Below are positions 18,025-22,366 of a stretch of DNA of 64,000 nt, one piece after another. Numbering within the stretch: position 1 is the stretch's first letter; each line of letters begins with the position of its first letter. The translations under genes and the position numbers were made by a program. Under the pieces are notes generated by a model, which did no database searches, had not been told where the DNA came from, and saw only the letters and a program-made list of their open reading frames with translations. The stretch comes from Thermoanaerobaculia bacterium (GTDB lineage Bacteria > Acidobacteriota > Thermoanaerobaculia > Multivoradales > J023): NCBI GenBank assembly GCA_030431255.1, contig JAUIJL010000003.1:310001-374000 (forward strand), written 5' to 3'.

Positions 18025-19254
18025 ATGCTGCGACGCGTCCTCATGTTCACCCTTCGTAAACCCCTCCGATTCTTCGCCTTTGGAGTCCTTGCCGCGGCCT
18101 CCTTGGCCTGGCTGCAGCTGGCCCTCGGTAGCTTTGTCGCGGAGCGCTCGGAGCCCGGAAGAGGAGCCTGTTGGATTTGGGCCGACGGGGCTGCCAATGC
18201 CGCGAAACCCTTGGCCTTTTGGATGGTTCGAGACCTTCGGATTACAGATCCTTCAGACCTGGAGAACGCCTCGGTGATCCTGGCCGCGGACGAGGCCTAT
18301 GTGCTTTGGCTCAACGGCGAGCGATTGGGGGCCGGCGAGTACACTCAGTCCATGGCAGCGGACCGATATGACGTATCCGGCCTGCTTCAGCTGGGCATGA
18401 ACCGGTTCGTCATCGAGCTTCGTAGCAGCCGGGGAGCGGGAGGCCTCTTGGCCAGCGTGCGGTCGGGTGACCGTATTCTGTTGTCCAGCGACGATTCTTG
18501 GCGGGTGATTCGCAGGGCCGATCCGCGAATTCTGCGGGGATCCCTTCCCTTGGAGGGCGCGGGGGAGCGGGTGAAGGTTTGGAGTGACTCGACCACCGGT
18601 CGTTTTCGAGTATCGGGGTTCGAGACGGCAAACCTGCAGCGTCGATCTTGGAGCGAGCCTGCGGCTCGAGAAATCGCTTTCCCCAAACGCATGCGGCATT
18701 TGTCCAAACAGGCTTCTTGGAAAGCGGTTGAGCAGCCCCCAGACCGGTTGCCTGCCCGCCAGACCGTGTTTGACTTCGGACGCCGAGTCAGTGGATTTCT
18801 CGACATGGAGCTGGCGGAAGAAGGACAGGCGGGCCTGGTGTTCTTCGGTGATGAGGAGCCCGGGGCCCAAAGCGATCGGCCGGATTTGGTGATCTCCCCG
18901 TTTCCGGGACGACACCACTGGCGAGATGTTCGAGCCAGGACCTTTCGCTACGTGGCTTTGGTAGGGCTGCCCGCTTTGCGTCGGTTGGAAGTGGCGATCG
19001 TGCCCGAGCAAGAGGCGGTGCCCGCCCATCGCGAGGCTCCCTTTCGCGGGGTCTTCGGCCTACCGCCGGCCCAACCGTATTTGCCGGTGGAAGAAGCGGT
19101 TTGGGACCGTCTCAAACATCTGGCGGCCCGGCAGTCCTCTAGCTCCGATCCCGAGACCGCAGACGGTCCGGCCGGCATTGAGCGGAAAGCTCAGCCCTCT
19201 GCTCCTTCGGTGTCGGGGACGGAGGGCGATTCCGAGTCTTCGACCGGCTCGTGA
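18025..19254 (+). CDS. Exported protein resembling alpha-L-rhamnosidase N-terminal beta-domains
   Basis: A 409-residue protein with a signal/anchor segment at about 15-38 (FFAFGVLAAASLAWLQLALG). The region GACWIWADGAANAAKPLAFW through VILAADEAYVLWLNGERLG is like the galactose-binding-like N-terminal domains of GH78 rhamnosidases, and RQTVFDFGRRVSGFLDMELA with FRYVALVGLPALRRLEVAIV continues that pattern. The catalytic alpha/alpha barrel of GH78 is missing; after residue 360 the protein ends in a Ser/Glu-rich tail. It may bind carbohydrate without cleaving it, or be a truncated enzyme. The 3' end is opposite the frameshifted permease gene; only the permease's out-of-frame extension overlaps it substantially. 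Confidence 0.65.
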   Translation: MLRRVLMFTLRKPLRFFAFGVLAAASLAWLQLALGSFVAERSEPGRGACWIWADGAANAAKPLAFWMVRDLRITDPSDLENASVILAADEAYVLWLNGERLGAGEYTQSMAADRYDVSGLLQLGMNRFVIELRSSRGAGGLLASVRSGDRILLSSDDSWRVIRRADPRILRGSLPLEGAGERVKVWSDSTTGRFRVSGFETANLQRRSWSEPAAREIAFPKRMRHLSKQASWKAVEQPPDRLPARQTVFDFGRRVSGFLDMELAEEGQAGLVFFGDEEPGAQSDRPDLVISPFPGRHHWRDVRARTFRYVALVGLPALRRLEVAIVPEQEAVPAHREAPFRGVFGLPPAQPYLPVEEAVWDRLKHLAARQSSSSDPETADGPAGIERKAQPSAPSVSGTEGDSESSTGS

Positions 19255-20927
19255 GCCGCCATTTCCAAGAAAAGGCGCCAAACGGACCGGCGGATTTCTT
19301 CGGCGCGTAAGCTTTCGATTCGTTTTAAGCGCTCGGCGATCGCCTCGCCTCGCCTCGCCTCGGCCGAGGCCGACCCACGAGTTGCCGTGGCTCGAAAGCC
19401 AACGGTCGGCCCGCCGGGCTTCTGCGGGTTGGCGCTCAAGGTGCGACAGCATCAAGCGGTCTTCTCTGTGGGGAAGCAAATCAGAGACCCGCGACGAGTC
19501 GCCTTCGACGAGATTTCTGGCCTTGGCGTAGGCCCGTGCCGTGTCGCTGGAAGGCAGTGAATCCACCCTTTTGCTCAAACGGGTCACCTCAACATCCAGC
19601 TTCTTTTGCATGGAATGTAGAGACTGCCATTGGATCGAGGCCGGCAGGGACAGCATCGCGGCCACGATGAGATAAAGCGCGGATTTTGACCACGGTAGCC
19701 GCCAGGATTGTCCGGAGGGAATCCACAAAGCTGCGGTCGCCACGAATACGGTGATCGGCAGCCAGACCATGCCTTCTATTGGCAGGAAGGAGTGAGTGAG
19801 CGACGCCGCTGAGCGCATCAACAGGTCCGCGGCGGAAAATGCTACGCCTAAAGCCACCGCGTGAGCAAAAGCTACGACAGGCTCTGTGCTCACCCTCGAG
19901 GCCACCATGGCCAGAGCATAAGCGAGCAGGCTCATTTTCCACCAGCTACTAAATTCGGTGATCTCCATCCAGACGGTCCATTCAGGTCCATTCAGGGTAT
20001 AAGCAACCGCGGCGGCAAGAGTGGAGAGGGCAATACCGACGCCCCATTTGCAGGCCCACTGGGCCCGTCGAGACGTGGGTTGGCTGAGCTGCATCGGCAA
20101 GGTGCCCCAGCGTCGTTCTTCGGCCATGGCCGAGCAACCGGCCAATGCAGGAGGTAACACGAGCACGAGTAGGACAGAAGCCTGTTGCACGAGGAGCCAA
20201 TCCAGTGCGGAAGCCGGTAGCCAGCTGATCAACGCAGCGAGGATCGGCCATAGGGCGGCTCTCTGCAGGCGAAGCTCCTTGCGTAACAGGTTCATCACCG
20301 GGCTCGAGAATCTGCGATTCGGGAGCGAGAAAAGGCTGACGCGTCCTTCTGATGATCCCTGTGGTGTGGTGACCTGGTAATGCTGTACCGCCCAGAATGC
20401 TGATCCCAGGAACAGCAATCCCATGGGAATGAGCATTGGAGCGACGAAGCGAGACGCGAAGTCGGCCGTTTCGGGTTGAGTCATCAGCAGGTCCAGGGCC
20501 AGCACCATGGAAAGGCCCGCTCCAAGAGCTAGGGACGCTTTGTGGTGAGCCAAGGCGAAGAGAAGGCTCAAGGCCGCTCCAATCACGGAGAGCTCCGCCA
20601 GGAGCAGCAAGTGCGGGGTTGGAGCCGGAGAAAGGAGCTGAAGAAGCCCCGCTCCTAAGCCTAGAGGGATCCAAACCATCATGCGCTCGGCGAGCAAGCG
20701 TGCTCGTGGGATCGGCTGAGCGAGGACCATTGGAAGCGACCGGTTTGTACATCTCGCCCGATGGAATAGGCCACCATCCAGCAGACACCAAAGAGAAAAA
20801 CGGCGCGGGCGAGAAAGCCCTGCAAGGGATCTACAAATGCCGGCAAGGCTGCAGCCAACCAGGAGATCGCGGGCACCCCGAGGGCTATCCTCAGCTCGTT
20901 TTTGATCCTGAGGCTCATGGCCCTCAT
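19191..20927 (-). pseudogene. ABC transporter permease with two frameshifts
   Basis: A multi-spanning membrane protein, partner of the ABC ATPase. The ATG at 20927 overlaps the ATPase stop (ATGA). The first frame reads SLRIKNELRIALGVPAISWL ... DVQTGRFQWS; at about 20735 the sequence must slip by -1 to continue as LAQPIPRARLLAERMMVW. The second frame then runs through about ten hydrophobic segments. At the (CGCCT)4 repeat (19341-19360) the natural reading changes again, to IAERLKRIESLRAEEIRRSV ending at 19191. Without that change the frame runs on to 19060 inside the opposite gene with no protein-like character. Both could be assembly errors or real disruptions; the second sits exactly at a slippage-prone repeat. 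Confidence 0.75.
19341..19360. repeat. (CGCCT)4 pentanucleotide repeat at a frame change
   Basis: Four perfect copies of CGCCT, read as GAGGC on the coding minus strand. Adding one copy (+5) or removing two (-10) would join the upstream permease frame to the protein-like tail ending at 19191. With four copies the frame runs instead to 19060. Confidence 0.9.
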
Positions 20928-21874
20928 GATGGAGCTCCTGCGAGGGTGGGGCTGGATTTTGACTCGAAGGTGTTTTCCAACTTTTGTGACCAGACGAAGA
21001 TCTCTTCCAAGGCAAGTCCTCGGCTTTCCATGGATTGCGGCCCGAAGGCCTCTAGCCGTTGCTCCATCTCGTCCGTGTATCGGGGGCTGACCATCTCGAG
21101 CGTTCGACCCATGCGATCTGTCTCGACCAGGTCGGGCATGTCGATCTCGGGCGGCTCGGAAGCGAATTCGAGTCGAATGGCTCGGTAGCGTTGTCTGGCG
21201 GATTGGGCATCCTCTTGCAACAGGGTTTTGCCGCTTTCGACCACCGTGAACGAGCTGATCAAACCTTCCACCTCGCGGATGAGATGAGTGGCGATCAAAA
21301 CCGTGCGTCCCGGATCGGCGGCCATGAAGTCGCCGATTACCGACTCCAAGAGCTCGCCCCGGACGAGCGGATCCAAACCGGAAATCGGTTCGTCGAGAAT
21401 CAGCAGCTCCGGGCTCGCGCACAACGCGCAGGCCAAAGCGAGCTGAGATTTTTCGCCCTTGGAAAGATGTTGCGCCTTGGCCCGAGGGTCGAGCCGGAAT
21501 CGCTCGTTCAGCAGATGGTCTTCCATGTCGCGATCCCACTGGTTTCTGAAGGAGGCAAAGTAGTCGAGCACTTGCCGCACGGTCATCCAGGGATAGAAGG
21601 ACGGGGAGTCGGGTAAGTAGGCGAGGCGACCCTTGATCGCGGTCTCGTGTCGGCCCAGCTCCAATCCGAAGATGTTGATGGATCCCGATTTGGGACGCAG
21701 CAGATTGAGCAGGCAGAGGACGGTGGTTGTCTTGCCGGCACCGTTGCGTCCGAAAAGGCCGTGACAGCTCCCGGCCGTGATTTGTAGATCTAGGCCGCTG
21801 AGGGCCTCGTGCCGGCCGAAGGATCGAAAGAGCTGGTGGACGTCGACGACGGTTGAAGTGCTTTGCGGTTCCAT
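20924..21874 (-). CDS. ABC transporter ATP-binding protein
   Basis: A 316-residue ATPase subunit. Walker A is GRNGAGKTTT near 43, the signature LSKGEKSQLALACAL near 137, Walker B LLILDEPISGLDP near 157, and the H-loop IATHLIREV near 195. The C-terminal 100 residues are an extension after the nucleotide-binding domain. Together with the upstream GntR gene and the downstream permease it makes a YtrA/YhcF-type operon, typical of transporters that answer cell-wall or antibiotic stress. The permease is frameshifted, so the system may be off in this genome. Confidence 0.92.
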   Translation of the reverse strand: MEPQSTSTVVDVHQLFRSFGRHEALSGLDLQITAGSCHGLFGRNGAGKTTTVLCLLNLLRPKSGSINIFGLELGRHETAIKGRLAYLPDSPSFYPWMTVRQVLDYFASFRNQWDRDMEDHLLNERFRLDPRAKAQHLSKGEKSQLALACALCASPELLILDEPISGLDPLVRGELLESVIGDFMAADPGRTVLIATHLIREVEGLISSFTVVESGKTLLQEDAQSARQRYRAIRLEFASEPPEIDMPDLVETDRMGRTLEMVSPRYTDEMEQRLEAFGPQSMESRGLALEEIFVWSQKLENTFESKSSPTLAGAPS

Positions 21875-21916: not shown

Positions 21917-22366
21917 TTATTGGGCGACTTGCTTCGATGGGGGTGGATCTTGAGCATCTTGCTCGCCACGTCGGCTCTGGTCGCGTTCTTCTGCGAAATG
22001 TCGGAGACGCTCTTCCAGTAAACGCAGGACGTCCTGGGCGTCGATCCTTAGGTGATGGGCTTGGATCACGACTTGGTCGAGCACCCCGACGAGGCTGTCG
22101 AGACGACGCCGTTCGTCCAGTGGGGAGCCGCCGTCGAGCACGAAAGCTCCCTTGCCCCGTCGGATCTCGACCACGCCCCGTTGCTCTAGCTCGCGAAAAG
22201 CTTTGTCCACGGTGTTGCGATTGACCCTTAAACGCTCGGCCAAGCGGCGAATGGACGGCAAGGCGTCTCCGGTGGCCAGCTGGCCCGAGGCCACAGCCCG
22301 CGAGATCTGCTCGACGATCTGTAGGTAGGGCGGGGTGGGGTTGTCGAAGTGAATGTTGAGAATCAT
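21917..22366 (-). CDS. GntR-family regulator, YtrA subfamily
   Basis: A 149-residue repressor-like protein. The winged helix-turn-helix is at 10-75 (PPYLQIVEQISRAVASGQLA, ALPSIRRLAERLRVNRNTVD, GVVEIRRGKGAFVL). The short helical C-terminal part lacks a FadR/HutC ligand domain, as in the YtrA subfamily, whose members usually repress the ABC operon they belong to. The tail is rich in Arg, Asp and Gln. It is the first gene of the operon, with the ATPase 42 bases on. The palindrome at 22465-22478 upstream is the likely operator. Confidence 0.88.
   Translation of the reverse strand: MILNIHFDNPTPPYLQIVEQISRAVASGQLATGDALPSIRRLAERLRVNRNTVDKAFRELEQRGVVEIRRGKGAFVLDGGSPLDERRRLDSLVGVLDQVVIQAHHLRIDAQDVLRLLEERLRHFAEERDQSRRGEQDAQDPPPSKQVAQ

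Follow-up and report, generated by a model that had tools for sequence, protein, structure and literature searches.

Is the short tandem repeat at which an ABC permease gene changes its reading frame a phase-variable switch, or does it lie in a gene that has been disrupted? An earlier note on this DNA had drawn attention to four copies of a pentanucleotide at the frame change and had proposed slipped-strand phase variation. The question was examined in the window, the whole stretch of 64,000 nucleotides that was analysed; the features concerned are listed in Table 1.

Table 1. Features of the permease locus, with positions counted from the first base of the window
Feature	Position	Strand	Remarks
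Convergent gene	18025..19254	+	Conserved in all six family members searched
Frame-1 continuation beyond the tract	19060..19340	-	Arginine-rich; probably out of frame; 195-base overlap with the convergent gene
C-terminal tail, frame 2	19191..19358	-	Charged, helical-looking; about 55 residues to the stop; 64-base overlap with the end of the convergent gene
Perfect period-5 run (TCGCC, 4.6 copies)	19340..19362	.	AGGCG on the coding strand; 23 nt
ABC-2-type permease body, frame 1	19363..20727	-	About ten hydrophobic helices and a cytosolic stretch before the tract
Permease N-terminal part, frame 2	20728..20927	-	Two hydrophobic helices; ATG start overlaps the ATPase stop at 20924
ABC transporter ATP-binding protein	20924..21874	-	Intact; upstream partner of the permease; PF00005, E 2.8e-25
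GntR-type regulator	21917..22366	-	Head of the cassette; PF00392, E 1.4e-18

The permease and its cassette

The permease gene stands at the end of a cassette with the order GntR regulator, ABC ATPase, permease. Both the gene order and the families are the same as in cassettes made up of a GntR (YtrA/PmtR-like) regulator, an ABC-2 ATPase and a permease, and the overlap of the permease with the ATPase stop is also shared. When compared with PmtA/PmtR, the ATPase and the regulator matched best or near best, at scores far under the curated cut-offs (141 versus 350 bits, and 52 versus 200 bits, respectively), and because of these low scores neither protein was assigned to PmtA/PmtR. The permease itself gave a weak match to PF12679 (ABC2_membrane_2), with an E value of 1e-4 and 22 bits, below the gathering cut-off of 27; the ATPase alongside it is clear.

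The GntR-ATPase-permease order recurs at several loci of related genomes in the clade, and the permeases of those cassettes are fast-diverging and open throughout. In contrast, the permease of the window is frame-broken and has no relative found by sequence. BLASTP produced no alignment at E < 1 between it and the permeases of the related GntR-ATPase cassettes; no homologue was found in 59 relatives (same genus, family), 149 class genomes, 396 phylum genomes or GTDB contigs; and a search of the permease region against a phage collection gave no match.

The pentanucleotide tract

The four CGCCT units reported at 19341-19360 (plus strand) are present and are embedded in a longer, perfect period-5 run (Table 1). 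The 20-mer of the tract has one occurrence in the 10.19-Mb assembly, and even the 15-nt three-copy core of the CGCCT unit is confined to this tract across the genome. A census of repeats and frame breaks was carried out on 1.22 Mb of the 10.19-Mb genome, in which the tract was the only period-5 run exceeding 15 nt. Sequence simulated from the genome's own phase-specific coding model contained, over 20 Mb, no period-5 run above 17 nt. The tract, a tandem repeat longer than chance within a coding region, is real and lies beyond what composition or codon usage would give by chance.

The frame break at the tract

On the minus strand, frame 1 of the permease stays open through the tract and ends at the 19060 stop; beyond the tract, frame 2 runs to a stop at 19191. 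To place the switch between them we trained a phase-specific fifth-order codon model on the host genome. The best switch position was 19351, inside the run, with 64% of the posterior within the 23 nt of the run and a 95% range of 19318-19383; switching at the tract was better than staying in frame 1 by 16 log units. An independent six-frame Viterbi scan of the 1.22 Mb set the break at 19350. The upstream permease frame and the frame ending at 19191 do therefore meet at the tract, as the earlier note had stated, and its arithmetic is correct: one copy added or two removed would join the two frames. A 66-base interval would include the sole tract of this kind in the 1.22 Mb by chance with a probability of about 5 in 100,000, and the tract and the frame break therefore belong together. 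A coincidence so far beyond chance makes copy-number change the natural origin of the break. Slippage is the likeliest cause of that change: repeat units of the (AGGCG)4 tract would most likely have been gained or lost through slipped-strand mispairing.

All the hydrophobic helices lie upstream of the tract, from which about 55 codons remain to the stop. The long unrelated tail that had been described as reading into the opposite gene is indeed found in frame 1, and it looks less like coding sequence than frame 2 does: from 19330 to 19180 its codon score is the lower of the two. Homology of the convergent gene stops at residue 364-383 of 409, short of the frame-2 overlap, and its last 25-45 residues are not conserved. 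The end of frame 2 overlaps this unconserved tail only, whereas frame 1 would enter the conserved part. Because its overlap is limited in this way, the frame-2 stop fits the neighbouring gene better.

The convergent gene (18025-19254, plus strand) has about 31-47% identity across the family, and its matches to rhamnosidase domains were only sub-threshold. No GntR-ATPase cassette was found beside the homologue of this gene in five of the six relatives. In a genome from another genus of the family (G002, locus L114, 16636-18785, minus strand), a GntR-ATPase-permease cassette is located about 7-8 kb from the homologue and includes a short six-helix-like permease.

A second frame break

A further frame break, absent from the earlier note, was found in the same permease at 20687-20731 (minus strand), where the codon model favoured a switch over an unbroken frame 2 by 23 log units. 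The first ~66 residues of the permease are in frame 2 and the body is in frame 1, and the join was placed by eye at GRFQW / LAQPIPRARLL. This break is some 1.3 kb upstream of the tract and splits the first two membrane helices from the remainder of the protein. The copy number of the tract decides whether the frame of the C-terminal tail is joined; owing to the second break, the whole gene stays out of frame at any copy number. An intact protein is therefore beyond the reach of any change in the tract alone, and on the sequence as given a full-length permease is impossible at any tract length.

Phase variation and other explanations

The case for phase variation held up in part: the frame break at the tract and its natural origin in copy number were borne out, and reversible switching was not. 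In such a system, frequent changes in copy number would swap the C-terminal tail between two forms, one of 55 residues (frame 2) and one of 93 residues (frame 1). As in the opa genes of Neisseria (CTCTT tracts) and in H. influenzae hsdM, (GACGA)n, a five-base unit is repeated in tandem in a coding region and the frame breaks at the tract, here with four copies. The four-copy pentanucleotide tract (GACGA)4 of Haemophilus influenzae hsdM switches at a high rate (PMC2651432), and the argument that four copies are too few to switch was dropped on this account. Meningococcal opa tracts with 5 or fewer copies nevertheless switch rarely, at 0.007 per month of carriage compared with 0.09 for 6 to 8 copies, a more than tenfold difference, and 0.16 for 9 or more (PMC7157529). 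Unlike opa and hsdM, the present gene has a second break, and the protein is incomplete whatever the tract does; the terminal tail alone is affected, and the target is an internal ABC permease, in a cassette that does not belong to the surface structures typical of phase variation. The tract is situated past the last membrane helix rather than early in the gene or in a promoter, where on/off expression would result, so switching would not turn the permease off. Nor does the sampled genome have a set of such loci: the 1.22 Mb contained no other non-triplet tracts of at least 18 nt. The second break lowers the probability of phase variation at the tract, which is unproven and which we consider unlikely. 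A narrower form, in which this large-genome environmental bacterium would use a reversible five-base tract as a contingency locus to swap the cytosolic tail of the permease between two sequences, the N-terminal break being an assembly error, appears very improbable.

The main rival, and a serious one, is an assembly or sequencing error at one or both breaks, with a single base missing from the consensus or the repeat count wrong by a unit, while the real gene is intact. The assembly consists of 54 contigs, both breaks are small indels, and all parts of the permease have coding-like codon usage and no in-frame stops, as an intact gene would. However, the estimated completeness is 98.8%, neither break is within a homopolymer longer than about 3, and the sampled 1.22 Mb contains so few frame breaks that two errors in one gene are unlikely; we regard such an error as possible. 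The frames could instead be natural, with the N-terminal piece and the frame-1 ORF (19060-20727) made as separate proteins of a split, or tail-extended, functional permease in which the frame-1 tail is tolerated. No stop interrupts frame 1 before 19060, and an ATG is present in it at 20727, but frame 2 is more coding-like than the arginine-rich frame-1 tail, which would also extend over conserved codons of the convergent gene, and the upstream piece stops 16 codons past the switch, in sequence that is not coding-like, all of which makes a natural split improbable. Programmed ribosomal frameshifting at one or both sites was also considered, as the tract in frame 1 contains AGG, a less-used codon (5% of arginine codons), together with CGA. 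It was rejected: no slippery heptamer was found at the N-terminal break, the RNA fold around the tract is no better than that of shuffles (z -0.2), and recoding would be needed at two unrelated sites of one gene. Its probability is the lowest of all the explanations weighed here.

Gene decay as the best explanation

With two independent frame breaks, we conclude, at a probability of about one half, that the permease of the GntR-ATPase-permease cassette is a young pseudogene, or at least that no working full-length permease is made from it. The break at 20687-20731 would part the first two membrane helices from the remaining permease, and no frame-restoring role would be required of the tract. 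In the living cell, permease function would presumably be lost. The 1.22-Mb scan returned 51 raw frame-break candidates, mostly ordinary gene overlaps, and roughly half a dozen true-looking breaks (a rough HMM count with inspection by eye). At this low background rate, two breaks in one gene of 1.7 kb favour decay over evenly scattered errors. Decay is also favoured by the finding that two of these other loci are remnants of ABC-transporter genes, and by the uninterrupted frames of the permeases read in related cassettes.

Against decay, the open, coding-like state of all the permease parts and the small size of both indels, which assembly error could equally produce, have to be considered. 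From the lack of in-frame stops and the coding-like codons it follows that decay, if real, is recent. The locus resembles bacterial pseudogenes arising from indels in short tandem repeats, in that small indels break a coding-like gene and one of them is at a tandem repeat; it differs from them in that no intact orthologue was found, so that decay is suggested rather than demonstrated.

A recently disrupted ABC permease is thus the most probable state of the gene, and on present evidence the tract amounts to one frame break at a repeat in a transporter gene with damage. If true phase variation did occur, an internal transporter from an uncultured environmental lineage would join the pentanucleotide contingency loci. 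Switching is not demonstrated simply because a repeat and a frame break coincide, and the rest of the gene needs checking for more breaks.

Other damaged genes in the genome

Visual inspection of the translations indicated damage in two further transporter genes. In a MacB-like ABC permease remnant (locus L059, 182-780; genome G000, contig C45, about 60.2-60.8 kb, plus strand), the two ends are joined with a frame switch and the middle is missing. An ABC ATPase (L053, 6995-8650; G000, contig C15, about 447-448.6 kb, minus strand) is truncated past its signature region, with a permease-like piece fused to it in frame and more frame switches after that. The deletions in these two genes are too large for base-calling errors; therefore, the genome carries decaying transporter genes. 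A possible frame break, seen by eye only, was also noted on contig C15 (L051, 4256-4931; G000, about 404.7 kb, plus strand), where it would separate an N-terminal region from a short C-terminal end resembling that of a VWA-type protein.
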